From a bacterium (lineage in GTDB: Bacteria > Verrucomicrobiota > Verrucomicrobiia > Limisphaerales > UBA11358), in NCBI GenBank assembly GCA_021813325.1, contig JAKALA010000035.1, positions 1-41,243 of the forward strand: DNA of 41,243 nucleotides, given 5' to 3'. Of this stretch, positions 24,674 to 41,243 are shown one piece after another (position 1 is the first letter of the stretch; the number at the start of each line of letters is the position of its first letter). The position numbers and the translations under genes were made by a program. The notes under the pieces were generated by a model. The model saw only the letters and a list, made by a program, of their open reading frames with translations, did no database searches and was not told the DNA's origin.

Positions 24674-25011
24674 AAAGCTTCCAGAGGATACGCCGTTATC
24701 AACCGGGGCGCAACCGCCCCGCGATCCCACTGCCAGACCGTTCGCACATGCGGCGAACGGCCATTCGCCGCGCGCAATGTTCCCGTCACCTCAAAACGCG
24801 GGCCGAAGCCGGTTTCATGCACACGCTTCACCACTTGCGTCCGGCCATGCACCAGCAATGCGTCCGCCAAAATTTCCCATTGCTCCGCACGGAACCCGAA
24901 TTTCAAAAAGAACCGGGCTTTGCTCGCGCCGTAACGATGCGCCGGATTCAGTAAATAATCCGCGATCTTCTCGCGCTCCACGATCAGCTTGTCTGCGTTG
25001 GGCAATTTCAT
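24670..25011 (-). CDS. DUF6883 small protein
   Basis: Predicted 113-residue protein: MKLPNADKLIVEREKIADYL, LNPAHRYGASKARFFLKFGF, and a C-terminal WQWDRGAVAPRLITAYPL. These are the hallmarks of DUF6883, a family usually partnered with DUF4926. ATG at 25011 overlaps the stop of the methyltransferase gene by ATGA, so it is coupled to the restriction-modification gene. Function unknown; toxin-like activity is suggested by context only. Confidence 0.8.
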   Translation of the reverse strand: MKLPNADKLIVEREKIADYLLNPAHRYGASKARFFLKFGFRAEQWEILADALLVHGRTQVVKRVHETGFGPRFEVTGTLRAANGRSPHVRTVWQWDRGAVAPRLITAYPLEAL

Positions 25012-28000
25012 TTGGCGGCCTCCACCAATTGAATTTCTTCCGGCGTCAGGTGGTAAAGCGCATAGACGAGTTGGTCGATTTCGGCTTCAAGCTGGCTGAC
25101 ATCGGCGCTGGCATCTTTTGCTTTGGCGGCGAGGATGCGGTCAACCAATCGCTCCACTGACTTTTGCTGCTCCGAAGTAGCGGCGGGGATTGGAAACTCA
25201 CGAAGGAACTTGGCACCTGGTTCAAAGAAATCATTTTGCAGACGTGGGATGAGCCGCCAAAATAGCCACGTTACAACGGTCGAATTTAGAATCCCCAAAA
25301 GAAATTTATTGCCGCCAGTGATTATGAAAGTCTTCTGATTGGCGTAAAATTTTGAATCATCCCATGCAAAATCATTTCGGTCACATATATTGGGATAGAT
25401 AATTTTGGGCTGTTCAAACGCCCCTCGGTAGTCTGCACCCCATCGTTGAAGCGCATACCATTCATAGCGAATTCCTGTTTCCGCTGCATTCCGCGCTGAC
25501 AAACTGTTCTTGAATCCCAAAAGATGACGATAAACAGCAGGAAATCGCTTCTTAAATTCGAATTCCGACTTCTCAGAAGCTCCCGTGATCTTTGGATCAT
25601 CATGCAATGGAAAATGCCAAGGCACAAAAATCAACCATAGGTCTTCCGGTTCAACTCTCCACCGTTTGACATCCCTTCCGCGTAGAAATGGTTTTAGAAT
25701 TTCTTCGGAGGATTTGTGCTCCTGAATCAGCCTATCCCGCGTTGCGCGGTCAACCACAAACGCTTCGTTCAATCCAGTTTTCAAGCCATAGTAGAATTGC
25801 CCATTGACATACTCGCCGAGCGATTTTGCATTCCTCCGCAACTTGTCGAGCAGGCGAAGCGCCGATGGAGATTCAAGCCGCCAACAATCGGGCTTTAATT
25901 CATCCTGCCTGATTTTCTGGCCTCGTTCTGGAATAACTTGTGCGATGTGGTCGAAATCAATTTCTTTGTCCCAAGTATAGCCAAGAGCGGCAGAATCTTT
26001 CACGGGCGTTTGCCTTGTGCCGGTAATTATTGAGGCATAAGCAATGGCCTCGAACACCGGCGCGTCGCCAAAATCAATGAGTTGTTGTAGCGTGAGTTCG
26101 CGCGTCAAAAAGCCGCGCAGTTTTTCGCCGTAGCCGGCGCGGTAGTATTTATTGGAGGTGATGAGCGCCATTGCGCCGCCAGCGCGCAACAACTTCACGG
26201 AGCGTTCGTAAAAATAGACGAACAAATCCGCCGTGCCGGTGAAACATTCAAAACTCCGCTTCAACGCCGGCTTGAATTCCTTGATTTCCTCCTGCCGGAC
26301 GTAGGGCGGATTGGCAATGACGACATCGAAGCCGCCGCGTTGCTGGAACACTTCGCCAAACTGTAGCCGCCAGAGGAAAAACGGTTTGCGGTGCGTGGCG
26401 CTGGCGCGCTTCAATTCTGCCAGAGCTTCCTGCCGGCCCTGCTCGCGCAAGGTGGCTTCCATGAAATGCCATTCCAGCCGGTCGAGTTCACGGCGCAGCT
26501 TATCCTTTTCCGCGCGGGTGTTTTCATCAAAAAATTGCGCGTGCAATTCCTGAATGCGCTTGAGGCTGGCCCAACTGGTCTGCTGGGTGAGTTCGCCCTG
26601 GGCGGAAGTGGACTTATCCGACGGATGGGACAAATCTTTCAGACGTTTGTTCAGACGGTGGACTTCCTGTGTGATGGCGAGGCGCTGGGCCTTGCGCTGG
26701 GTGCTGATGCCCTGGCCGGCTTCGAGCGCAAACAGCTCCTGGGACTTGGCCACGATGCGGGCTTTGATCTCGCTGATCTCCTCCTCGCGGGAAACCGCCG
26801 GCGGCTGCAACAATTTTTCATCCAGCAGCCGCACGCCGTCGAATTCTTCCAGCAGGGAATTGCCCTGCATGATTTTGTAATCGAGGTTCGGCAACGGCTG
26901 GATTTCGGTGATGTTGTCCTCGTCCACGACCATGGAAAGCCAGAGGCGGAGCTTGGCGATTTCCACCGCGCCGGGGTCGAGATCCACGCCGTAGAGCGAG
27001 TGCTGAATGGCGTGGCGTTTGAGATGGTAGGGGGAACGGTCGTTGGAATTTGCCGACTGCGGATTGCGGAGTTCATCCAGTGAAGCACACCTCACCCCGG
27101 CCCTCTCCCCATTTGGCCCCTCCGCCCCGGCCAAACGCGGAGAGGGAGAAACGCTCCCACCGTTCAGGCAGGGTGTCAGGGCGACGCGGGCGCGGACGAT
27201 CTCGTGCATCATGCCGACAGGAAACGCGCCGGAGCCGATGGCGGGATCGCAGACGGCGATGGTGGCAAGCAATTCATCCAGCCGGGCGGCATTGGCACTG
27301 ATGCTGTCGGGCAGGCGTTTGTCGGCGTGCTTCTTGGTTTCCTTGGCTTGAAAATCGGTGAACCGTTCCGCCAACCGCAGGAACAAGGCGAGGTCTTTTT
27401 TAGTTATTGTCGCTGACGAGACGAGGCGTTGATTTGATTTTTCCCCATGTCCCTCATCCGGCCTGCGGCCACCTTCTCCCACTCCCGTGGGCGAAGGAAC
27501 TGCCTCGTCGTCCACCGCGCCGGTGCGGACGGTGAGATAATGCAGCAACGCCTGCTGGCACATGTAGTGGACGATGACGCGCGGCGTGTAGTAGGTGCCG
27601 CTGGAATGGCGGATGTTTTCCGGCAGCAAATTCTCGAACACCAAACCGAGCATTTCCGGGTCAACGGCCACTTCCTTTTCCAGCGGCTCGGCTTCGTTGA
27701 CGGTGAAATTGTAGCGGTCGAAAATATCGAGGATGCCGGTGCCGGTTTCATCGCCTTCGCCGGTCGGCTCGGCATTGGCAAACAGCGTATCGGGCAGCAG
27801 GATCTCCGTCTCGACCCAATTATAGCCGTAAAGCGGCTCGAACAGCCCGCCATTCAGGAACGGGATTTTGCAATCGAACCGGGAATAATAATGGTCTTCG
27901 TCCGTGCGGGGCGCGGCGATGGCCTCGTAAAACAGCGGCTCCAAAATGTCGTTGAAGAAATTGACCGGCCGTTTGCGCTGGCCGGGACCATGGGCGTAGT

Positions 28001-28856
28001 CGGCGCGATGGGTGAACAGGTGGCGGATGAAATCCTTGCGGCCGCTACCCCATTTATGCCCGCGCTCGACGCCAAACCAGCCTTTCTTTTGCAGAAAATA
28101 GAGGAAGACGATTTGACCGAGCAATTTCTTGGCGAAATCGTCGCATTCAATGCCGCGCTCGGCAAAGTGCGCCTTGATCTTGGGCGCGGCATTGAGGAAC
28201 GCGGCGAGCGCGTCGCGCGTCTGCTCATACAGGTCTTTATACTGGTCGTAAAATTCCTTGGTGACTTTCTCGACGCTGAACGCGGCTTCCAACTGCGCCA
28301 CCGTGGGGTTGACCTCCCGCATCTGGAGCAGGGCCAGAAATTGTTTTTGCGCGGTGTGGCAATTTTCATGCTTGCCGACGAGGTAGCTGTAACGCCGCGC
28401 GGGCGTGAGCTGAATGCGCTCGTTGACGAAGCCAAGTTCAGATTTCTCGAAGGTGAAATCCAATTTGACGAAGGAAAAACGCCAGTCATCTTCGGTGGGC
28501 GAGACGAACGCGGCCATGACGGCGGCCTTGCCCTGGCCGTGACCGGTGGCGAGATAATCCGCGACGAAATTGCGCAACGTCACGCGCCCGCGCGCCAGTG
28601 TGGTTTCCTTGCGGAGATAAATCACCAGAATGTCCACCAGTTCCCCGGCGGGATCAGCATAGGTGCCGATGCGGGTGAAGTGATTGACGTAATCCTGAAA
28701 TGCCGCCTTGATGAACTGTTTCGTCCAAGTCTTTTTTCGATCTTCTGATTCGTCGAGGTGGTTGACGAGGTTGCGGATGAAATAGAGAAAACGGGCGTCG
28801 TCGAACTTCTGGCGAAAAGTTTCGACGATGGTTTTACGCGCGAGTTCGGGGTTCAT
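25008..28856 (-). CDS. Eco57I/type IIG-like adenine-specific DNA methyltransferase
   Basis: Predicted 1282-residue restriction-modification protein. The AdoMet-binding motif DPAIGSGAFPVG is near residue 540 and the catalytic NPPYV of N6-adenine methyltransferases near 848. A TaqI-like specificity domain covers about 990-1230, with the recurring tail DRILAAKA ... YALYHLTPEE at the end. The large N-terminal half resembles Eco57I/PglX-type proteins; no clear nuclease motif could be picked out. Two palindromic repeats are inserted in frame (about residues 452-468 and 569-588). The codons of the specificity domain (about 25260-25700) are visibly AT-richer than the rest. It lies downstream of a zinc-finger gene and a PLD-helicase in one unit, so it probably modifies host DNA while the helicase/nuclease restricts invaders. 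Confidence 0.88.
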   Translation of the reverse strand: MNPELARKTIVETFRQKFDDARFLYFIRNLVNHLDESEDRKKTWTKQFIKAAFQDYVNHFTRIGTYADPAGELVDILVIYLRKETTLARGRVTLRNFVADYLATGHGQGKAAVMAAFVSPTEDDWRFSFVKLDFTFEKSELGFVNERIQLTPARRYSYLVGKHENCHTAQKQFLALLQMREVNPTVAQLEAAFSVEKVTKEFYDQYKDLYEQTRDALAAFLNAAPKIKAHFAERGIECDDFAKKLLGQIVFLYFLQKKGWFGVERGHKWGSGRKDFIRHLFTHRADYAHGPGQRKRPVNFFNDILEPLFYEAIAAPRTDEDHYYSRFDCKIPFLNGGLFEPLYGYNWVETEILLPDTLFANAEPTGEGDETGTGILDIFDRYNFTVNEAEPLEKEVAVDPEMLGLVFENLLPENIRHSSGTYYTPRVIVHYMCQQALLHYLTVRTGAVDDEAVPSPTGVGEGGRRPDEGHGEKSNQRLVSSATITKKDLALFLRLAERFTDFQAKETKKHADKRLPDSISANAARLDELLATIAVCDPAIGSGAFPVGMMHEIVRARVALTPCLNGGSVSPSPRLAGAEGPNGERAGVRCASLDELRNPQSANSNDRSPYHLKRHAIQHSLYGVDLDPGAVEIAKLRLWLSMVVDEDNITEIQPLPNLDYKIMQGNSLLEEFDGVRLLDEKLLQPPAVSREEEISEIKARIVAKSQELFALEAGQGISTQRKAQRLAITQEVHRLNKRLKDLSHPSDKSTSAQGELTQQTSWASLKRIQELHAQFFDENTRAEKDKLRRELDRLEWHFMEATLREQGRQEALAELKRASATHRKPFFLWRLQFGEVFQQRGGFDVVIANPPYVRQEEIKEFKPALKRSFECFTGTADLFVYFYERSVKLLRAGGAMALITSNKYYRAGYGEKLRGFLTRELTLQQLIDFGDAPVFEAIAYASIITGTRQTPVKDSAALGYTWDKEIDFDHIAQVIPERGQKIRQDELKPDCWRLESPSALRLLDKLRRNAKSLGEYVNGQFYYGLKTGLNEAFVVDRATRDRLIQEHKSSEEILKPFLRGRDVKRWRVEPEDLWLIFVPWHFPLHDDPKITGASEKSEFEFKKRFPAVYRHLLGFKNSLSARNAAETGIRYEWYALQRWGADYRGAFEQPKIIYPNICDRNDFAWDDSKFYANQKTFIITGGNKFLLGILNSTVVTWLFWRLIPRLQNDFFEPGAKFLREFPIPAATSEQQKSVERLVDRILAAKAKDASADVSQLEAEIDQLVYALYHLTPEEIQLVEAAK
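27091..27150. repeat. Palindromic repeat inserted in frame in the methyltransferase gene
   Basis: A long interrupted hairpin: CCCTCTCC (27101-27108) pairs with GGAGAGGG (27139-27146), and TTTGGCC (27112-27118) with GGCCAAA (27129-27135). Read on the coding strand it adds low-complexity residues (SPSPRLAGAEGPNGERAG) between conserved methyltransferase motifs. The frame is intact. A shorter relative occurs at 35044-35079. Confidence 0.75.
27451..27498. repeat. 47-bp palindromic repeat, copy 1 (in the methyltransferase gene)
   Basis: Begins CCCTCATCCGG and ends GTGGGCGAAGG, with two hairpins (GGCC-TGC-GGCC and CCTTCTCCCAC/GTGGGCGAAGG). A near-identical copy sits in the helicase gene at 30264-30310. 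On the coding strand it is read PSPTGVGEGGRRPDEG and keeps the frame. Confidence 0.82.
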
Positions 28857-28893: not shown

Positions 28894-29628
28894 TCATAGG
28901 TTTAGCACTCCTTTGCAAGCCGGATAAGCAGAGCAGCCCCAGAACTGCTGGCCGGCATTCTGGCCGGTCTTGGCGGTGCGAAGAACGGTGGGTTTGCCGC
29001 ACTGCGGACAAGCGGGAATATCAGCGGGTGGATTGGGCGAATCCTGTTTGCGCTGGCGTTCGGCCAGGCGGGCGGTGGCGAGTTGTTCGCTGTAGCCGCC
29101 GTGCTCGATGAAGGCCTTTTCGAGGGCGGCAATCTGCTGGTCGAGCAGGTAGTTGGCCTGGTGGATGAGGCAAATGGCGGCGTTGGCGCGGACGGCGGGA
29201 TCCGCGTGGTCGAGCCATTGAGAGTATAGCATCCAACGTTGTTGATCGGTCAAATCAGTCAGATCGGACGAATCGTTTTTGCGCTGCTGGGGCACGCGGC
29301 GGACGGCCAGGGCTTCCGGGGAATCCGGCAGCCATTGCGTGAGGCGGCGGTGGCGCAGAAAGTCTTCGTAGTCGAGCAGCAGTTCCTCCAGGCTGGCGCG
29401 GGCGACGTTGAGCAGGCGCAGCTCGGTTTGCGAAGAAGTGGCGGCGGCGCGGCTGCCTTCGGCAATGTTTTGGCGGCCGGAGCGCGCGGCTTGCACCATC
29501 TGGTCCACCGTGCGGCTGCGCGAATCAAGAAATTTTTCGCAGAACCAATAGGTGGCGTCGTAGATGAGGGTGGCTGTTTGAAAGCTACAGGTGGCGCGAT
29601 AGCCTCCGCTAGGTCGAATCTTACTCAT
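28894..29628 (-). CDS. Four-helix-bundle protein with C4 topoisomerase-type zinc finger
   Basis: Predicted 244-residue protein. Residues 5-95 resemble the four-helix-bundle (S23/IVP-like) fold (CSFQTATLIYDATYWFCEKF; QNIAEGSR), as in the 'four helix bundle suffix domain' family. The C-terminus is a topoisomerase-type zinc ribbon with Cys207, Cys210, Cys232 and Cys238 (PACPQCGK ... FWGCSAYPACKG). The ATG at 29628 overlaps the helicase stop by 8 bases. Such proteins can bind nucleic acid; here it may be an accessory DNA-binding subunit of the restriction system. The Asp/Leu/Thr stretch DSSDLTDLTDQQ comes from a short direct repeat. Confidence 0.78.
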   Translation of the reverse strand: MSKIRPSGGYRATCSFQTATLIYDATYWFCEKFLDSRSRTVDQMVQAARSGRQNIAEGSRAAATSSQTELRLLNVARASLEELLLDYEDFLRHRRLTQWLPDSPEALAVRRVPQQRKNDSSDLTDLTDQQRWMLYSQWLDHADPAVRANAAICLIHQANYLLDQQIAALEKAFIEHGGYSEQLATARLAERQRKQDSPNPPADIPACPQCGKPTVLRTAKTGQNAGQQFWGCSAYPACKGVLNL

Positions 29629-32600
29629 GCTTTTTACTTTGATCTGGCGAATCAGACGGATTTGACCGATCCGCAGTCAGCCAAGACGACAGGATGACTT
29701 CACGCGGCGCGCCGTCATGGGCGGCGGTCGAAATGTGCGCCCGCAGGAATTCGCGCGCGACGCATCGACGCAAAATCCGCAGGATGTTCAACGGCTGCAA
29801 CTCGGTTTTGAGGGCGTCGGCGATTTTCTGCGTGGTGCGCTTGGGCAATGCGCCTTCCTCCAGCAACCGGATCACCTTGCCGACAAATTCCTCGTCATCG
29901 TCCGTGAACTGCTGGCAACGGCGAACTTCCCTGGCGCGCAGTCGTTTCAAGACCGTGGCGGTCACGCGGTCGCCGCGCGGCGCGGCTTCGTCCGGCCCGC
30001 CGTCGCCGGTAGTGGCCGTCAAAAAGTTCGCCTTGTTCCGCTCCAACAAATCATAGAACCCGCGCGGGATGGTCTGGCGCGGTTCGGTGGCGTCGGCGGG
30101 TTTCAACATTTTGGCGGCGGTGAAGAAATCCACTTCGGCGGCATCGGCGCTGGGCGGCGGCGTGAGAAAAAATTTGTCGAGTTTGCCGCGACGGAAATAG
30201 GTGAGCAACGCGGGAAGTTTGGGAACTGGGGCCGCCGCGCTTAATTGGTTTTCTCCCGGACGCCCCTCATCCGCCCTGCGGGGACCTTCTCCCACTCCCG
30301 TGGGCGAAGGGTATGCGGCGGGAAGCAGGCGGGTGGAGCGGGCTTTTTTGGGCAGGCGTTTAATGCGGTCGAACAGTTCGGGCGTTTTGTCCCGCACTTC
30401 ACGAATTTCCGCGAGGTATTTCAGCTCGCTTTCCTCATCGGCGTTTTCACCGGTGATGGTTTCCTTGGAATTCAACCGCGTGAACAGGCTTTGCGATTTG
30501 ATGTCTTCGCCATCGGTCAACAGTTTGGCATCCGCGCCCAGCATTTCGATGAAGGCGTGAATCTTGGCCTCGGCGGCTTCGCGGAGCTTGATGATGTCGT
30601 TGCTCTTGGTGGTTGGGAAAAAATTGAACGTGTAGATTTTTTCAAACTTGGTGTCCACGCGGTTGACGCGCCCGACACGCTGAATCAGCCGCGTGGGATT
30701 CCAAGGGATGTCGTAATTGATAACGACGTGCGAGCGGTGCAAGTTCACGCCTTCGGCCAAAACCTCGGTGGCGACGAGGATGCGGTAATCGTCCTTGGGG
30801 TGACGCACTTTGGCGTCGAAATTGGAAATGACCTCGGCGCGCACGCTTTCATGCGACATGCCGGTAAAGACGAGCACCTTCGGGTCCACCTCTTTGGCAA
30901 TCTGTCCGGCGAGATAGTCGGCGGTTTCCTTGGACTCGGTGAAGATGATGATTTTCCCCTTTTTGAGATGCGCCTTGGATTTCAGGACGGCGGCAAATTC
31001 CTCCCACTTGGGATCGTGGGTGATTTTTTTCCAAAGGTCGCGAATGGTGTGAAGGATTTGCCGGTCGCTTTTCAGGTCGGCGATAAACGTCGGCCGAAAA
31101 TCACCAGCACCCAATTTTTCCGCCTTGTCCTCATCAATGAGCCGCTGCAGCGCCTCGGTGTCGTCGGATTCCAACAATTCAAACACCTTGGCGATATGCT
31201 TCTTGCTGATGAAAACCTGGCCTTTGCCGAATTCCTCAATGACGCGCTCGTAGGTGGCGATGAAGCGCCCCAACGTCTGGCGGAAGGCGGTGAAACTGCT
31301 TTCGAGGCGTTTCACCGTGAGGATTTTCATGAACTTGGCAAGGTTCACCTGGCTCTGGACTTCCTGCTTGGCGCGCTCGCCCTGAAAATATTCAAGCGGT
31401 TTATAGCGGGCGTATTTGAACTCCAGCGTCAGCAGGCGGACGGTTTCGTCGAAAATTCGATTCTCGGATTCGTCCAGCTTGTAAAAAAGAGGGTCTGGAT
31501 CGGCAACCTCCGGGAATTTCAACCCCTGCCGGGCGAGGTCTTCCCCGTAAAATTCTTTGATCTCATTCCGCGTCCGCCGAATCATCAGGTGCTTGAGAAT
31601 TTTTTCCCGCGTGGCGCGGGCGTTGTCCTGCACGGCCTGAAAATACTGGTCGCGGTCGTCCTGCCGGTCGAGGCCGTTGATATTACGGCGCAAGCCGGCG
31701 AAAAACGCCTCCAGATTGCGGACGCCGGGAATGGTGCTATTCTTGGCCGGCTGAAACAGCTTGATCTGGCTCAAGATGTCCTGCGGCGAATTGTTCAACG
31801 GCGTGGCCGAGACGAGCACGACCTTCTTGCCGCTGCAAATCTGCGCGAGCAATTCATAGCTCTGCGTGTCCTCGGTGCGAAACCGGTGCGATTCATCAAT
31901 GAAGACATATTGATAATTGTCGAGGTCTTCACGTTCCAACAGCGACGCCAGCTTGCCGATGGATTCAAACTCCGCGCCGCGCACGCCGAAATCGCGGAAG
32001 ACGTTCGGCCACGAGCCGGGATTGTGCTTGTCCAGCAGGTGCGGCGGCGCGATGACAATGGAGCGTCCGTCCAAGTGCCGGGCCAGCAACGCCGACATGA
32101 AGGTTTTGCCCAGGCCGACGACATCCGCCAGAAACACGCCCTTGAATTCATCGAGGACGCGGGCGGCATTCAACACGGCATCCTCTTGATATTTCAATTT
32201 CTTGAAATCGGTGGGCAGATAGGAATCATCCAACTCATCGGGCTGGTTGAGTTCGCTGCGGAAATATTCGTAAAGGAATTTCAGATACAGCTCGTGTGGC
32301 GTGAATTGGGAATAGGGCGACTGGGTTTCGATAACCTGGACGAAATCCTGGGAGACCTCGACGGCCTGCGCCCACAACGCATTGAACTTGCCGAGGGCGA
32401 ATTCGTAGTCAGAACGATTTTTCAACTCGACGTTGAATTCCAAATTGTCCACCAGGCCGGCGGCGGTGAAATTACTGGAACCGGTGATGACGCGGCCCTG
32501 GTCAATGTGACCGTCCACAAACGTCATGACATACAGTTTGGCGTGAATCCGTTCGGACGGGTAAGCTTTGATTTCCAGTTTGCCGGACGCGATCCACTCG

Positions 32601-32950
32601 ACGAATTTGCGGACGCCTTCCTCGACGCTGGCGGTGTCGTCGGATTTTTCCAGTTCACCGCGCAACGCGCCGGTGGCCGCCGCCCGCGCCTGCGCGTGGG
32701 ATTCCAAAACCAATTCCTGCTGCCGCGCCTCCTGGATAAGCTCGAAGGTTTTGCCGTCGGTCTCGATGCCGATGAGAATCCGGATTTTTTCCGTCGGCGC
32801 GAGCGCCGGATACAGCTTGTAAAACCCGCTGATGAAAAAGTAGCCGACCAGACAATCAAAAAAACGAGTGTTGCGTCCAAGCAGGACGGCGAAGCGGTCG
32901 CGCAGGCTTTGGCCGGCCTCGTTGGTGATGAACGTCAGGTCAGAGGACAT
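29621..32950 (-). CDS. PLD-like nuclease fused to SNF2/superfamily-2 helicase
   Basis: Predicted 1109-residue protein from ATG 32950 (MSSDLTFITNE). Order: an N-terminal phospholipase-D-like domain with HxK-type HAKLYV near residue 135 and GSSNFTAAG, Walker A VVGLGKTF near 275, DESH box (FIDESHRF) near 350, and helicase C motif region ATEVLAEGVNLHRS with QRVGRVNRVD near 740-770. The C-terminal 300 residues are less conserved and carry an in-frame palindromic repeat at 30264-30310. Combined PLD nuclease and ATP-driven translocase suggests the restriction arm of a phage-defence system together with the methyltransferase downstream. The frame stays open upstream to 33427 and beyond, so a longer fusion is possible. 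Confidence 0.85.
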   Translation of the reverse strand: MSSDLTFITNEAGQSLRDRFAVLLGRNTRFFDCLVGYFFISGFYKLYPALAPTEKIRILIGIETDGKTFELIQEARQQELVLESHAQARAAATGALRGELEKSDDTASVEEGVRKFVEWIASGKLEIKAYPSERIHAKLYVMTFVDGHIDQGRVITGSSNFTAAGLVDNLEFNVELKNRSDYEFALGKFNALWAQAVEVSQDFVQVIETQSPYSQFTPHELYLKFLYEYFRSELNQPDELDDSYLPTDFKKLKYQEDAVLNAARVLDEFKGVFLADVVGLGKTFMSALLARHLDGRSIVIAPPHLLDKHNPGSWPNVFRDFGVRGAEFESIGKLASLLEREDLDNYQYVFIDESHRFRTEDTQSYELLAQICSGKKVVLVSATPLNNSPQDILSQIKLFQPAKNSTIPGVRNLEAFFAGLRRNINGLDRQDDRDQYFQAVQDNARATREKILKHLMIRRTRNEIKEFYGEDLARQGLKFPEVADPDPLFYKLDESENRIFDETVRLLTLEFKYARYKPLEYFQGERAKQEVQSQVNLAKFMKILTVKRLESSFTAFRQTLGRFIATYERVIEEFGKGQVFISKKHIAKVFELLESDDTEALQRLIDEDKAEKLGAGDFRPTFIADLKSDRQILHTIRDLWKKITHDPKWEEFAAVLKSKAHLKKGKIIIFTESKETADYLAGQIAKEVDPKVLVFTGMSHESVRAEVISNFDAKVRHPKDDYRILVATEVLAEGVNLHRSHVVINYDIPWNPTRLIQRVGRVNRVDTKFEKIYTFNFFPTTKSNDIIKLREAAEAKIHAFIEMLGADAKLLTDGEDIKSQSLFTRLNSKETITGENADEESELKYLAEIREVRDKTPELFDRIKRLPKKARSTRLLPAAYPSPTGVGEGPRRADEGRPGENQLSAAAPVPKLPALLTYFRRGKLDKFFLTPPPSADAAEVDFFTAAKMLKPADATEPRQTIPRGFYDLLERNKANFLTATTGDGGPDEAAPRGDRVTATVLKRLRAREVRRCQQFTDDDEEFVGKVIRLLEEGALPKRTTQKIADALKTELQPLNILRILRRCVAREFLRAHISTAAHDGAPREVILSSWLTADRSNPSDSPDQSKKHE
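30264..30310. repeat. 47-bp palindromic repeat, copy 2 (in the helicase gene)
   Basis: Differs from copy 1 at three positions by eye. In the first hairpin GGCC/GGCC is replaced by CCC/GGG, so pairing is kept. Read on the coding strand as PSPTGVGEGPRRADEG, in frame inside the helicase C-terminal region. Confidence 0.82.
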
Positions 32951-33427
32951 AGAAACCCATGACGGCGCCACCTCGGTGGCGGCCCCTTGTGCTGAAGCTG
33001 GTTGCCGGATTCCGCATCGTGAAGGACGCATGATGCACCCCGGCGGGAAAACTGCACAGAAAATTTTCCAGGCCGATTGGCCGTTCCGAGTTCCCCGGCA
33101 GTTGGGAAAACGCGAGCAGCCCCAAAATTGCGCGCCGGCACTGGCGCCTTTCTTGGCGATGCGAAGTTTCATCGGGCTGCTGCATACCGGACAGGCGGGG
33201 ATTTCCGATTGTGGATTTCCGATTGCGGATTGCAAATTTGTGGCGGGCGGCTCAACCGGGGTGTAACCGTAGGGCTGTTGCCGGTCGCGCTGGAACTGGT
33301 GAACGAGGCGCAAAAACCCGTCGCGGTCAATCAACTCAATGGGTTTGCCGGCGGCAAAGCGACGGGCCTCGGCGTCGCGGCCAAAACGGCTTGGCGGGGT
33401 TTTACGTGAGCTAGTGCGCTGTAACAT
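32951..33427 (-). pseudogene. Remnant of an Mrr-like nuclease end plus zinc finger, in frame with the helicase
   Basis: From ATG 33427 the frame reads RFGRDAEARRFAAGKPIELI and then DRDGFLRLV, the usual C-terminal end of Mrr-type restriction endonucleases. It continues into a topoisomerase C4 zinc ribbon (PACPVCSSPMKL ... FWGCSRFPNCRGTR). The nuclease core is missing. After GTR the translation is low in coding character and crosses a hairpin (GCCACC/GGTGGC at 32967-32980) to reach the helicase ATG without a stop. It is most simply a decayed fragment, but a chimeric zinc finger-PLD-helicase protein starting at 33427 cannot be excluded. An in-frame NLQSAIGNPQSEIP stretch also stems from a short repeat. 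Confidence 0.6.
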
Positions 33428-33483
33428 TGAGATAACACACGTGTCGCGAGGAGGTCGGGAACTCCAGCCGCTCGTGGGTTGAA

Positions 33484-33499
33484 GCGGCCTGAAGGCCGC
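33484..33499. repeat. Short perfect hairpin (REP-like)
   Basis: GCGGCCT and AGGCCGC flank GA in the 130-base gap between the nuclease remnant (leftward) and a toxin-antitoxin pair (rightward). There is no T-run, so it is not an obvious terminator. Confidence 0.5.
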
Positions 33500-33556
33500 G
33501 CGCCGGGCGTTTAACTTTTTATTCGCAATCGAAAGGTAAAACCGTAAATTGGAGCC

Positions 33557-33820
33557 ATGAGCGTCGAGCAAATTGGAAAAACCTTGTTGCCATTGCCGCG
33601 CGAGGAACGCCGCCAGTTCGCCGACTGGTTTTATCAACACGAAAACCAAATCGTGGAGCCTCACGACGGCGAAATTCACCCCGAGGTCCGCGCGGAATCA
33701 GAACGCCGGTTCAAGGAAATCGAGGCGCATCCCGAATTGCTTGAACCGTGGGCGGCCACGACGGCCCGGATTCGGGCGCACCTTCATGAAAAATGTTGTC
33801 AGAAAAACCGCCGCCGCTGA
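33557..33820 (+). CDS. Antitoxin-like small protein
   Basis: Predicted 87-residue, highly charged helical protein (MSVEQIGKTLLPLPREERRQ; WFYQHENQI). The N-terminus resembles RelB/ParD-side 'addiction module' proteins that begin with a similar 'SVEQI...LP.EER' helix. A GGAG ribosome site lies just before the ATG. The next gene, a ParE-like toxin, starts 34 bases before this one ends, the usual compact antitoxin-toxin order. Antitoxin role inferred from context; no DNA-binding motif is evident. Confidence 0.65.
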   Translation: MSVEQIGKTLLPLPREERRQFADWFYQHENQIVEPHDGEIHPEVRAESERRFKEIEAHPELLEPWAATTARIRAHLHEKCCQKNRRR

Positions 33821-35977: not shown

Positions 35978-36958
35978 TCACGAGATAACCAGCTTGGTGC
36001 CCTCAAAATCGAACCGGAAGCGCACTTCCTTCAGGCCCGCCGTGCGCATGGCGTGGCGCAGCTTGGCCTTGTCCTCCGCGTAAAACATCAGGAAGCCGCC
36101 GCCGCCCGCGCCGATGAGCTTGCCGCCGAGCGCGCCGCTGGCCATCGCCAGGTCATACCATTCGTTGATCTTGGGGTTGCTCATGCCGCCGCTGCGCTGT
36201 TTCTTGCGCTGCCAATGCACATCCATTAGCCGCGCGAACTCTTGCAAGTTTCCGGATTCCAGCGCCGCCTGGCTTTGCAGGCCGAGGTCTTTGACGAAGT
36301 GCAGGTTCTCGATCATGGACTTGTCGTCGGACTTCGATTTCACGTCCTGCTCCTTCAAAATCGCCGATGCGCTGCGCGAATAGCCAGTGAAGAAGAGCAG
36401 GAGATTATCTTCAAGATTGTCGCGCGTTTCCTCAGACGTCTTCAACGGCCACGCCTCGACTTTGCCGCCGGGCAAAAACTTGAAACACGTCAAACCGCCG
36501 TAGGCCGCGATATATTGATCCTGCTTGCCAATGGGTTCGTGCAGGCGGTTCAACTCGATGTCGCACGCCTGCTCGGCGAGTTCGGCGGGATGAACCAGAT
36601 TTTTTTTGTAGGCGTGCAACGCCTTGAGCAGCGCCGTGGTGAAACTGCCGGAGGAACCCAGCCCGGTGCCGGCGGGAATGTCCGCCATCGAAGTCAGTTC
36701 GAGCGAATGGCCGTTGACCCCCACCAACGCCATCGCTTCGCGGATGATCGGATGTTTTAATTGCGAAGCCTCCGGCACGCGCTCCAACTCGGAATACTTC
36801 ACAATCAAATCCGGCACGAAGGTTTCGTGGAGCGTGATATAAACGTAGCGGTCAATCGCGCCGGCGATGAGGAAGCCGCCGAACTTTTCGTAATACGACG
36901 GCAAATCGGTGCCGCCGCCGCCGAGAGAAATGCGAAGAGGAGAACGGGCAATAATCAT
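35978..36958 (-). CDS. GHMP-family sugar kinase (HddA-like heptose 7-phosphate kinase)
   Basis: Predicted 326-residue cytoplasmic kinase. ATG 36958 (MIIARSPLRISL) is the natural start; the longer frame reads through a tandem repeat. Motifs: GGGGTDLP (13-20), the ATP-binding PAGTGLGSSGS (95-105) and a C-terminal LIGAGGGGFLMFY, as in D-glycero-D-manno-heptose 7-phosphate kinase and related sugar kinases. Probable role: phosphorylating a heptose or other sugar at C1 for nucleotide-sugar synthesis for surface polysaccharide. It is the last gene of the minus-strand sugar cluster, separated from the next gene by a four-helix-bundle cassette. Confidence 0.85.
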   Translation of the reverse strand: MIIARSPLRISLGGGGTDLPSYYEKFGGFLIAGAIDRYVYITLHETFVPDLIVKYSELERVPEASQLKHPIIREAMALVGVNGHSLELTSMADIPAGTGLGSSGSFTTALLKALHAYKKNLVHPAELAEQACDIELNRLHEPIGKQDQYIAAYGGLTCFKFLPGGKVEAWPLKTSEETRDNLEDNLLLFFTGYSRSASAILKEQDVKSKSDDKSMIENLHFVKDLGLQSQAALESGNLQEFARLMDVHWQRKKQRSGGMSNPKINEWYDLAMASGALGGKLIGAGGGGFLMFYAEDKAKLRHAMRTAGLKEVRFRFDFEGTKLVIS

Positions 36959-36963
36959 AAGCA

Positions 36964-36996
36964 AAAGCGGAAAGCGGAAAGCGGAAAGCGGAAACT
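36964..36996. repeat. Inverted repeat, left arm (AAAGCGG x4)
   Basis: Four AAAGCGG units followed by AAACT. It is the exact reverse complement of 37396-37428. The 33-bp arms enclose the four-helix-bundle gene. Confidence 0.92.
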
Positions 36997-37022
36997 TTCC
37001 CCGCGCTGGTTGGTTGAAAATT

Positions 37023-37373
37023 TCATGGTTCGGTTTTTGCCTTGCGGCCAATGGTAATCAGAATCGCCAGCAACTGGCCAGCTTCGTTCAAAAGTTCGGC
37101 AATCTGCTTGTCGGAGCCAAGTTTTGTGTCCTTGCAAATCTCCAGCCAGTAAATCGTTTCGGCGGCTTCCTTTTCCGCGATGCCGGTTTTGTGGATGAAA
37201 TCGCTTTTGGATTCGGCGCGGTTGGCCTCGCGGTAATTTGCGCCGATGGAAGTTCCGGCGCGCAACAACTGCCGGCCGATGATCTCTCCTTCGGCGCTTT
37301 TCGGAAAAGCAGCAACCGTCTTCACCACCATCACGGCAAATTTTTTCGTCCGCTCCTCCAATTCCGTTTTCAT
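37023..37373 (-). CDS. Four-helix-bundle protein (S23/IVP type), cassette 1
   Basis: Predicted 116-residue all-helical protein: MKTELEERTKKFAVMVVKTV, then GRQLLRAGTSIGANYREANR, then KEAAETIYWLEICK. This is the four-helix-bundle family first known from intervening sequences in 23S rRNA genes and related to the Avd accessory protein of retroelements. It is bracketed by a perfect 33-bp inverted repeat of AAAGCGG units that could form a long stem in the mRNA. A sister copy lies at 40641-41081. Function unknown; RNA or nucleic-acid binding is likely. Confidence 0.88.
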   Translation of the reverse strand: MKTELEERTKKFAVMVVKTVAAFPKSAEGEIIGRQLLRAGTSIGANYREANRAESKSDFIHKTGIAEKEAAETIYWLEICKDTKLGSDKQIAELLNEAGQLLAILITIGRKAKTEP

Positions 37374-37393
37374 TTGTGGTGAGGCGGGGCAGT

Positions 37394-38392
37394 TTAGTTT
37401 CCGCTTTCCGCTTTCCGCTTTCCGCTTTGGTAAATCTGCTCCACGACATTCAAAGCTGCTTTTGCCTCACGCAAGCCTGGAACCGGACGACGTTTCACGC
37501 GGATGTCTTCAAAAAATTCCGACATCTCGATTTTCCACGACTCGTCACCACGCGGAAATTCCCAGATGGTCGTGTCCGGCGGTCCCATTTGCGGGAGCAT
37601 TTTGTAATACGTCAGCCGCTCGACACCGTAGCTGCCGCCGAGTCCTTCCCAGTGGAGCTTGGCGTCTCGCCCGTAGATTTCGAGGCTGAACAAATTTTTC
37701 CATTCGCTGCAACTGACGTGCAGCCACGCGGTGTGGCCGGCGGCATTGCGCAACGAGAGAAACGCGTTGTCGTCCACCGGCATTTTCCAGAAATACGTCG
37801 TCGCGTGGCCTTCCACCGTGGTGAAGTCGCCGAGAAAAATTCCCGCGAGGTCAATCAGGTGGACGCCCTGATCAATCAATTCGCCGCCGCCGGAGAGTTT
37901 CGGATCTGCGCGCCATTCCCTCTCGTAACCGACGCGTCCGCCTTGGCCGTAGCGTCCGCGCACAAACATCATCGGGCCGAGCACACCGCTTTTGAATAGT
38001 TCGACTGCCTTCAACGCGGCTGGATGAAAACGATGATTGTAGCCGACACGGACCAGCGCACCGGTTTTCTTCGCGGCGGCTTCGAGTTCGTCGAGTTCCT
38101 TCACGGAAATCGCCGCCGGTTTTTCGACGAGAACGTGCTTGCCCTTTTTCACCGCCGCCAGTGCAATCGGCTGCAAGGTGGAATTGAGCGTGGCGATGAA
38201 AACCACTTCCACTTGCGGATCAGAAACGGCGTCTTTGAAATCCGCGCAGGCGCGGCCGCTCTTGGCAAGCTTCACCAATTCCTCGGCGCGCGACAGGTTT
38301 GTGTCGCAGGCGACGACTAGCTTCGCGCCAGCGGGCATTCCCGTGACGCGTTTTTTTCCGATGAGGCCGCAACCGATGATGGCGTAGTTCAT
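37394..38392 (-). CDS. Gfo/Idh/MocA oxidoreductase of the sugar cluster
   Basis: Predicted 332-residue NAD(P)-dependent oxidoreductase; ATG 38392 (MNYAIIGCGLIGKK) is preferred over a TTG two codons earlier. The Rossmann motif IGCGLIG is at the start, VLVEKPA gives the EKP signature, and GGGELIDQGVHLID is the C-terminal catalytic region. It probably oxidises or dehydrates a nucleotide-activated or free sugar on the way to an unusual surface sugar. The last residues (QSGKRKAESGN) come from the right arm of the tandem-repeat array, so the repeat has become the C-terminus. Confidence 0.88.
   Translation of the reverse strand: MNYAIIGCGLIGKKRVTGMPAGAKLVVACDTNLSRAEELVKLAKSGRACADFKDAVSDPQVEVVFIATLNSTLQPIALAAVKKGKHVLVEKPAAISVKELDELEAAAKKTGALVRVGYNHRFHPAALKAVELFKSGVLGPMMFVRGRYGQGGRVGYEREWRADPKLSGGGELIDQGVHLIDLAGIFLGDFTTVEGHATTYFWKMPVDDNAFLSLRNAAGHTAWLHVSCSEWKNLFSLEIYGRDAKLHWEGLGGSYGVERLTYYKMLPQMGPPDTTIWEFPRGDESWKIEMSEFFEDIRVKRRPVPGLREAKAALNVVEQIYQSGKRKAESGN
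37396..37428. repeat. Inverted repeat, right arm (CCGCTTT x4)
   Basis: AGTTT followed by four CCGCTTT units, the exact reverse complement of 36964-36996. It overlaps the last codons of the oxidoreductase gene. Confidence 0.92.
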
Positions 38393-38403
38393 GTTCAATA
38401 AAC

Positions 38404-38480: not shown

Positions 38481-39374
38481 TTAGCTCCACTTTTTGCCGC
38501 GATCTTCCGGCACGATGCGGCGCAGACAATAAACGTCCGACTTCGCGAGTTCGTCGCGGTGCTGCTGCAAATCTTTCCACGGATCCCATTGCGCGCTGAT
38601 GAGCTTGCCGGTAATACCATCACTCTCGGCACTGGCGAGATACACGGCCAGGTTCGCGCCGAGTTCAAGCGGCACCGCGCCCTTTGCTTTCCAGCCTTTG
38701 TTTTTCTCAAAAAACGCCGCGCCGACTTTTTCCGGACCGGCGGCCAAAACTTCATCCACCAGCCGCGTCGCGAGCGCGCCGGGCGCAATCATGTTCACGT
38801 CCACGTGAAACGGCCTTAATTCCTCGGCCAGCGTTTCGCCGAGCCGGACCACCGCCGCCTTTGACGCCGCGTAAGAACTGATGTTCGGCAGCGGATTCGT
38901 CGCGCCGCCGCCGCTTAAGACGATGATTTTTTTGTTCGCGCCATTTTGTTTTCCGCTTTCCGCTTTCCGCTTTCCGCTTTTGAAGTGCGGAATCACCGCG
39001 CGGCACGGCAGCAACACACCGAACAAATTGATGTCAATCGCCCGCCGCCATTCGGTGATGGAAACCGATTCAGTCGGCCCCATCGGCCCGTAAATGCCGG
39101 CGTTCAAAACCAGCGCGTCGAGCGAACCAAGCTCCTTGAGCGCAAAAGCGATAAGCGCACCGACCTGTGTTTCATCGGCGACGTCACAAGTTTTGGCGGC
39201 GATTTTTTGCGACGGAAATTTCTGCGCCAGCTCGGCGCGCGTGACGGACAAGTCCTTTTCGCTGCGGGCGCACAGCACGACATTCGCGCCTTCGCGCAAA
39301 AAGTGTTCGGCGATGACCTTGCCGAGTCCCTGGCTGCCGCCGGTGATGAGTGCGTTAAGATTCTTGAGTTTCAT
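38481..39374 (-). CDS. Short-chain dehydrogenase/reductase
   Basis: Predicted 297-residue SDR. TGGSQGLG (11-18) binds the nucleotide, NAG is at 91-93, Ser154 is the likely catalytic Ser, and Tyr168/Lys172 lie in YAASK. The family is usually about 250 residues; here a stretch SGKRKAESGKQNGAN (133-147), encoded by a CCGCTTT array, enlarges the protein just before the catalytic Ser strand. The C-terminus (KLISAQWDPWKDL) resembles sugar-nucleotide and lipid-modifying SDRs. It lies 1 base after the dehydrogenase-like gene, so the two are coupled in the surface-sugar cluster. Confidence 0.87.
   Translation of the reverse strand: MKLKNLNALITGGSQGLGKVIAEHFLREGANVVLCARSEKDLSVTRAELAQKFPSQKIAAKTCDVADETQVGALIAFALKELGSLDALVLNAGIYGPMGPTESVSITEWRRAIDINLFGVLLPCRAVIPHFKSGKRKAESGKQNGANKKIIVLSGGGATNPLPNISSYAASKAAVVRLGETLAEELRPFHVDVNMIAPGALATRLVDEVLAAGPEKVGAAFFEKNKGWKAKGAVPLELGANLAVYLASAESDGITGKLISAQWDPWKDLQQHRDELAKSDVYCLRRIVPEDRGKKWS
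38950..38980. repeat. Solo CCGCTTT array inside the SDR gene
   Basis: Four CCGCTTT units, the same array as the arms that bracket the four-helix-bundle gene but with no partner arm nearby. It is read in frame as KRKAESG-type residues. Confidence 0.85.
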
Positions 39375-40644: not shown

Positions 40645-41081
40645 AGGCAAAAGCGGAAAGCGGGAAAGCGGAAAAGCGGAAAAGCAAAACAAAGGACCGC
40701 ACCGGCGGCGGTTATTGCCGAACTTATTTGCCGTGACTTGCCTTTGGCTTTGCGACCAATGGTGGTGATGATGGCCAGCAATTCACCGGCTTCCGCGCTA
40801 AACGTTTTCACGTCCGCAGTTTTGCCAAGTGCCGTTGACTCACAAATTTCCAGCCAATAAACGGTTTCCGAAGCCTCCTTCTCCGCAATTCCAACCTTGT
40901 GAATAAAATCGCCTTTTGATTCAGCGCGGTTTGCCTCGCGATAATTTGCGCCGATGGAAATTCCGGATCTCAACAATTGCCGCCCGACCTCGATGCCGTC
41001 AACCGTTTTGGGAAATGTCCGCACCAGTTTGACAATGCCAACCGCAAACCTTTGGGTTCTGCCTTCCAGTTCGGTTTTCAT
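40641..41081 (-). CDS. Four-helix-bundle protein (S23/IVP type), cassette 2
   Basis: Predicted 146-residue protein from ATG 41081. Residues 1-115 closely match the copy at 37023-37373 (GRQLLRSGISIGANYREANR; KEASETVYWLEICE). Beyond GRKAKG the reading continues about 30 residues, the last part through the left AAAGCGG array (FPLFRFPAFRF), to a stop that overlaps the dehydrogenase-like ATG (ATGA). The natural end was probably near residue 115; the extension looks acquired from repeat sequence. Like cassette 1, it has inverted arrays on both sides, here degenerate. Confidence 0.85.
   Translation of the reverse strand: MKTELEGRTQRFAVGIVKLVRTFPKTVDGIEVGRQLLRSGISIGANYREANRAESKGDFIHKVGIAEKEASETVYWLEICESTALGKTADVKTFSAEAGELLAIITTIGRKAKGKSRQISSAITAAGAVLCFAFPLFRFPAFRFCL
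40649..40685. repeat. Degenerate AAAGCGG array, left of cassette 2
   Basis: Units AAAGCGG with one-base insertions (AAAGCGGG, GAAAAGCGG). Fourteen bases (AAAGCGGAAAGCGG) are the exact inverse of part of 41104-41120, on the other side of the four-helix-bundle gene. Confidence 0.8.
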
Positions 41082-41103
41082 GCGTTTGTTTTCGCTTTCT
41101 CGA

Positions 41104-41120
41104 TTTTCCGCTTTCCGCTT
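41104..41120. repeat. Degenerate CCGCTTT array, right of cassette 2
   Basis: TTTTCCGCTTTCCGCTT, two units, the inverted partner of the array at 40649-40685. It lies in the gap between the epimerase stop and the four-helix-bundle start, touching the stop codon. Confidence 0.8.
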
Positions 41121-41243
41121 TATTTTCGCGAGTCGTAAACCCACTGGTTTTGCTGGAGCCATTGCAGCGTGCGGACGATGCCTTGCTCGATGGTCAGCGT
41201 GGTTTTCCAGCCGGTGCTTTGGATTTTTTTCGTTTCAAGATCG
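41120..41243 (-). CDS. C-terminal end of an NAD-dependent sugar epimerase/dehydratase (partial)
   Basis: The last 40 codons of a gene that continues beyond the window. DLETKKIQSTGWKTTLTIEQ and GIVRTLQWL match the conserved end of nucleotide-sugar epimerases ('D.S....LGW.P..SLEEGI..T..W'). It is the most upstream gene seen of the minus-strand surface-sugar cluster. The enzyme subtype cannot be told from this piece. Confidence 0.78.
   Translation of the reverse strand, partial: DLETKKIQSTGWKTTLTIEQGIVRTLQWLQQNQWVYDSRK

Follow-up and report, generated by a model that had tools for sequence, protein, structure and literature searches.

The stretch of DNA analysed here (the window; 41,243 nt, contig JAKALA010000035.1 of assembly GCA_021813325.1; Verrucomicrobiota; Limisphaerales, hereafter "the order"; UBA11358) carries, between two protein genes, a 465-bp unit at positions 36964–37428 in which a single PF05635 (S23/IVP) gene is enclosed by inverted arrays of the heptamer AAAGCGG. 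On balance we favour the view that we are dealing with an intergenic relative of the intervening sequences (IVSs) of 23S rRNA, in which the S23/PF05635 gene family was first found. It would be a PF05635 cassette, variable in presence and closed by inverted heptamer arrays, to which the mechanism proposed below may apply. Four observations carry this view: the unit is present at its junction in some species and absent from others, period-7 arrays accompany PF05635 genes, the arrays have a preferred length, and the two arms of a cassette change in concert.

The unit and its PF05635 gene

The two arms (36964–36996, plus strand, and 37396–37428, minus strand) are 33 nt long each and 100% complementary, with 399 nt between them. 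Each consists of (AAAGCGG)4AAA, an array part of 31 bp, and two further bases (CT in the first arm). In 50 dinucleotide-block shuffles of the window the longest inverted repeat within 500 bp measured 12–18 nt, as against 33 nt in the real window, which bears out the perfect 33-bp inverted repeat around one four-helix-bundle gene that had been described in a first-pass annotation of this DNA. The same annotation held that the arms pair in the transcript with the gene in the loop, and the computed RNA fold of the unit is indeed closed as a whole by its arms (minimum free energy −187.2 kcal/mol, z=−5.6).

The unit has the Gfo/Idh/MocA oxidoreductase gene upstream (37394–38398, minus strand) and the GHMP kinase gene downstream (35978–36958, minus strand), both assigned by Pfam and read in the same direction. 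Arm 2 lies inside the 3′ end of the oxidoreductase gene, the last codons of which (..YQSGKRKAESGN*) are made up of the array, with the stop just inside it; arm 1 ends 5 nt ahead of the kinase ATG (complement of 36956–36958). The PF05635 gene (37023–37373, minus strand) is the only gene within the unit. Given these flanks the unit lies outside 23S rRNA, and no Rfam match was found anywhere in the window.

The 116-aa protein matches the PF05635 profile with 81.3 bits (curated cut-off 33.8; E=7e-23). Its monomer model (pLDDT 95.8) matches the S23 proteins of PDB entries 2rld and 2gsc, with a TM score of 0.84–0.87 for 2rld, and thus is predicted to adopt the four-helix-bundle fold of the solved S23 proteins. 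Five chains each are present in 2rld, 2gsc and 4dwl, relatives of the protein that we modelled as a monomer, and the S23 protein of Xanthomonas campestris has been described as a homopentamer (PMC4990558). For the S23 proteins of IVS elements no function is known (PMC4990558). Codon-wise comparison of three orthologues from the GHMP site gave a ratio of nonsynonymous to synonymous divergence (dN/dS) of 0.05–0.10 at a synonymous divergence of 0.9 up to saturation; the gene is under purifying selection.

A more distant fold match is Avd (4dwl; TM 0.72–0.78), the accessory protein of diversity-generating retroelements (DGRs), with which our protein probably shares the four-helix pentamer fold; a DGR ribonucleoprotein (8ub7) was also matched, and homology between PF05635 proteins and Avd has been pointed out before (PMC10053308). 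These likenesses would suit a DGR-like retroelement in which an Avd-like protein and a reverse transcriptase copy array RNA into new sites. We consider such retrohoming very improbable and have rejected a reverse-transcriptase partner, because RVT_1 (PF00078) was detected neither in the 95%-complete genome to which the window belongs nor in the PF05635-rich genomes G001 (97% complete, 14 PF05635 genes), G005 (96%, 11) and G024 (90%, 10), nor in G017. RVT_1 is present, by contrast, in G010, which has no PF05635 gene.

Filled and empty sites and the concerted change of arms

Comparison across orthologues of the GHMP kinase gene revealed that the Gfo/Idh–GHMP junction is filled in five congeners (G000, G016, G063, G017 and G004), all with the same 31-bp array at the site of arm 1. 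At least eight congeners (G003, G055, G054, G060, G041, G052, G008 and G062) have a clean junction with abutting genes. The filled species are scattered on the GHMP tree, on which their distribution takes four changes, at least two of them forced. A second junction, metK–ahcY, is filled in eight species and clean in seven others, while a further five have only a terminator-like hairpin there. The clean empty sites in close relatives which the first-pass annotation had proposed to look for exist at both junctions (7–12 cases at metK–ahcY).

AAAGCGG or a near match is present at some of the empty GHMP sites (G054, G008 and nearly G041) and in many orthologues of the short-chain dehydrogenase/reductase (SDR) gene described below; G003, whose empty GHMP site is the closest, has none there. 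These matches are suggestive only, and AAAGCGG might act as a seed in the target site. In three further species (G053, G020 and G058; loci L046, L049 and L056) degenerate TTTCCGC-like repeats stand right ahead of the GHMP start, there with a different upstream gene and no PF05635 gene near.

Between any two of the five species filled at the GHMP junction, the arms agree at 60 of 60 positions, over inner DNA that is 70–79% and flanking genes that are 78–88% identical. The heptamers at metK–ahcY differ by species (AGGTTTC, AGTGTTC, AGTTTCA/AAGTTGG and AGTTTTC), and arms of one heptamer class pair well, but arms taken from different classes mostly do so poorly; thus, the two arms change in concert. 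Two pairs of solo AAAGCGG arrays at orthologous positions in two species (L203/L204 and L211/L216) are likewise identical, with flanking DNA at 79% and 65% identity. Array identity over diverged flanks needs either selection on the exact sequence, copying from array to array, or recurrent insertion at identical positions, and an RNA stem by itself fails to account for the solo arrays.

The hyper-conserved arms, the purifying selection on the gene, the occupation of the same junctions in several species and the position of the arms, which abut start and stop codons, would all be compatible with a fixed regulatory cassette. In such a cassette the arms would be an RNA or DNA operator through which the PF05635 gene and its operon are autoregulated; inheritance would be vertical with patchy loss, the unit would be immobile, and the protein would use the solo arrays as its operators at further genes. 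We regard this model as unlikely, if still worth serious consideration, given the many exact empty sites scattered on the tree and the solo arrays, which are found on both strands within frames of unrelated genes uninterrupted by stops, an odd location for an operator.

Period-7 arrays, their length and a possible mechanism

Arrays were counted as near a PF05635 gene if they were exact period-7 repeats of at least 16 nt within 200 bp of it. Such arrays accompany 64 of the 116 PF05635 loci of the order; the corresponding counts for periods 6 and 8 are 8 and 7, and far flanks comprising four times more sequence gave 16. In PF05635-bearing genomes array density is 1.91/kb near the gene and drops to 0.31/kb in the remaining noncoding DNA and to 0.06/kb in coding sequence. 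The two flanks of one locus share inverted matches, many of them 12–33 nt long, and direct matches show little excess. The association extends beyond the order: among 80 loci from Verrucomicrobiota, Chloroflexota, Bacteroidota, Desulfobacterota, Acidobacteriota, Planctomycetota and others, near arrays were found at 31 and far-flank arrays at 3. Arrays of at least 20 nt numbered 19 in 380 kb from seven genomes with PF05635 versus one in 375 kb from four genomes without it, and in 195 genomes of the phylum AATCSGC arrays occur in 16, every one of which has PF05635 (median 8 genes vs 2.5).

Arms around other family members, the second check that had been proposed, are therefore in place: inverted heptamer arrays surround further PF05635 genes, both within the order and across many phyla. 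The notion of AAAGCGG as a fixed arm signature had to be given up, as arms are period-7 arrays of many sequences with one preferred length. Two variants of the layout were seen. In one PF05635 subgroup (L020, L033, L106 and L229) the order is array, inverted array, gene, inverted array, so that two alternative partners are available for the first array to pair with. Three loci from Desulfobacterota and relatives (L306, L318 and L336) have inverted AAAGTG..TAAAGT arms with an apparent spacing of 9 nt in place of 7. When the retrieved PF05635 loci were scanned for conserved 23S motifs, no member embedded in 23S came to light.

AAAGCGG arrays are dispersed, the 14-mer having up to 98 matches per genome, and 26 of the 30 AAAGCGG array loci that were read have no PF05635 motif nearby. 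For all 16 solo arrays tested, the surrounding frame is free of stops over at least 374 codons; solo arrays lie on either strand of the contig. The length of AAAGCGG arrays is bounded: for all 43 exact 28-mers of AAAGCGG in G016, G017 and G063, the array is shorter than 35 bp. For 17 other heptamers array counts fall from 16 to 29 nt, rise to a second peak at 30–34 nt (24 arrays observed vs 5.2 expected) and are few beyond. An array of the preferred length, 31–34 nt, holds five copies of a 3–6-nt anchor at 7-nt steps (for example AAA, ATTG, GATG or AGAAT, each five times). Very long GGTCGGA arrays, beyond the usual limit, are found next to a PF05635 gene in G037 (L035, 1089–1328).

Template switching perfects inverted repeats and could yield concerted arms. 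In a neutral scenario polymerase slippage would make the heptamer arrays, template switching would turn them into perfect inverted repeats, and the link to PF05635 would be indirect; slippage has been proposed for bacterial heptamers, at least in the literature cited by PMC4692102. We judge this scenario improbable. The second length peak followed by a stop is unlike the decaying spectrum of slippage, and neither the enrichment of arrays beside PF05635 genes across phyla, with their near absence from the sampled PF05635-free genomes, nor the exact identity of arrays over diverged flanks is expected from it.

For the cassette view, we hypothesize that the five anchors per array match the five protomers per pentamer. 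A homopentameric PF05635 ring would recognise the array as single-stranded RNA or DNA, one anchor per protomer. The terminal stem of the transcript might serve as substrate of a double-strand RNase, as in rRNA IVSs, which would make the insertion cheap for the host operon. Array copies would spread and be homogenised in trans with no need for a reverse transcriptase, the likeliest route being template switching during replication or repair at bound arrays. More broadly, it is tempting to speculate that heptamer arrays serve the pentameric ring as docking tracts with five sites, each protomer taking one 7-nt step. The arrays would then constitute a class of tiny mobile DNA set by geometry (5 x 7) and not by sequence, of which the S23 cassette and the rRNA IVS are the gene-bearing form. 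We advance this broader idea tentatively and are more inclined to doubt than to accept it.

Several points weigh against the cassette view. No movement of the cassette has been observed, and no target-site duplication is visible at the insertion, near which the flanks have diverged. Two orthologous sites kept by diverged genes under purifying selection also fit long vertical residence followed by loss. About half of the PF05635 genes have no detectable exact array nearby, and the genome-level comparisons of arrays and PF05635 ignore phylogeny. Moreover, solo arrays of AAAGCGG are frequent in genomes, incomplete as these are, in which no AAAGCGG-armed gene was found (many arrays in each of G003, G009, G014, G020, G054, G060 and G062). 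The first-pass claim of a mobile IVS-like cassette therefore stands in part. The empty and filled sites, the inverted heptamer arms elsewhere and the likeness to the Coxiella IVS support the cassette; as for its mobility, patchy presence could stem from transposition but also from recombination or from precise loss that occurred repeatedly.

We also considered solo arrays as footprints of cassettes armed with the same heptamer. This idea is unsupported, as in the seven genomes just named AAAGCGG arrays are many and the loci read include no AAAGCGG-armed gene.

The window contains further arrays and PF05635 genes. A second AAAGCGG-armed unit spans 40649–41121 and consists of an imperfect AAAGCGG/AAAAGCGG array (40649–40685, plus strand), a PF05635 gene (40725–41084, minus strand; E=6e-20) with 66% protein and 65% DNA identity to the first, and a short TTTCCGC array (41105–41121, minus strand). 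A solo 31-bp AAAGCGG array (38950–38980, minus strand) lies in frame inside the SDR gene (38481–39374). It is missing from all 23 orthologues with an extracted junction, and the SDR protein encoded here has 297 aa versus about 286 aa in the orthologues. The check on solo insertions covered this SDR gene and the orthologous pairs of solo arrays. The doubled heptamer AAAGCGGAAAGCGG does not occur outside the window in the 4.28-Mb assembly. Another array of the solo type (33199–33233; GGATTTC/GGATTGC) is in frame in a helicase-like open reading frame (ORF; 29621–33679), where it codes for a linker (NLQSAIGNPQSEI). A weak PF05635 match (29380–29586; 30.8 bits) lies within ORF 28894–29628, which has a C4 zinc-ribbon-like motif at its end and is neighboured by a large methylase-like ORF (25008–28856) and the helicase-like ORF; this region is possibly a defence locus.

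Significance and relation to known systems

Among the repeats of intergenic DNA, tandem heptamers were the most abundant in a survey of 7006 prokaryotic genomes from 2018, which saw no clear clue to their function (PMC6344855). The link between PF05635 and heptamers joins two puzzles, the function of S23 proteins and the abundance of heptamers, and is a first lead on the latter. Both become testable, since the link supplies a named protein, a preferred length of the arrays and a stoichiometry that is predicted. Should no more than the cassette part be true, IVS-type elements with a diagnostic terminal structure are still widespread between protein genes. The general association is new relative to the open-access literature searched (subscription journals and preprints aside), in which no general link between PF05635 and heptamer arrays was found; an IVS with heptamers at one locus was already known from Coxiella.

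Like miniature inverted-repeat transposable elements (MITEs) and repetitive extragenic palindromic (REP)-type repeats, the arrays are tiny and scattered singly, some of them in inverted pairs around a gene. The unit differs from these in being built of a period-7 array of variable sequence and preferred length, with no visible target duplication; no transposase turned up inside the unit, where none was specifically searched for. Closer in form are the heptamer repeats of Xanthomonas (GGGAATC), which are dispersed, mostly of four units, and form 70–75 convergent inverted pairs per genome (PMC4692102). Period, dispersal, the prevalence of four units and inverted pairing are shared with the arrays described here, and X. 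campestris is the source of the PF05635 structure 2gsc. By contrast, the heptamers of Xanthomonas and other bacteria are mostly intergenic and have been read as G-quadruplexes or slippage products, with no link to PF05635 (PMC4692102; PMC6344855), whereas the arrays studied here comprise many different heptamers that as a rule are not G-rich.

The best match is the 23S rRNA IVS of Coxiella, an element of 428 nt with a 28-bp terminal stem, an S23 ORF and three GACAGAT heptamers (PMC4990558). It is located in rRNA helix 45 and is cut in vitro by RNase III at the first repeat (PMC4990558). The two elements share the S23/PF05635 ORF, a similar size (428 nt vs 465 bp), a terminal stem of similar length (28 bp vs 33 bp) and heptamers in tandem, so that the analogy to rRNA IVSs drawn in the first-pass annotation holds for the architecture as a whole. 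The Coxiella element lies in rRNA with its heptamers adjoining the ORF; the present unit lies between protein genes, and the heptamers themselves are the arms. Because of its location outside rRNA we do not class the unit as an rRNA IVS; it is a relative of these elements in form and gene.
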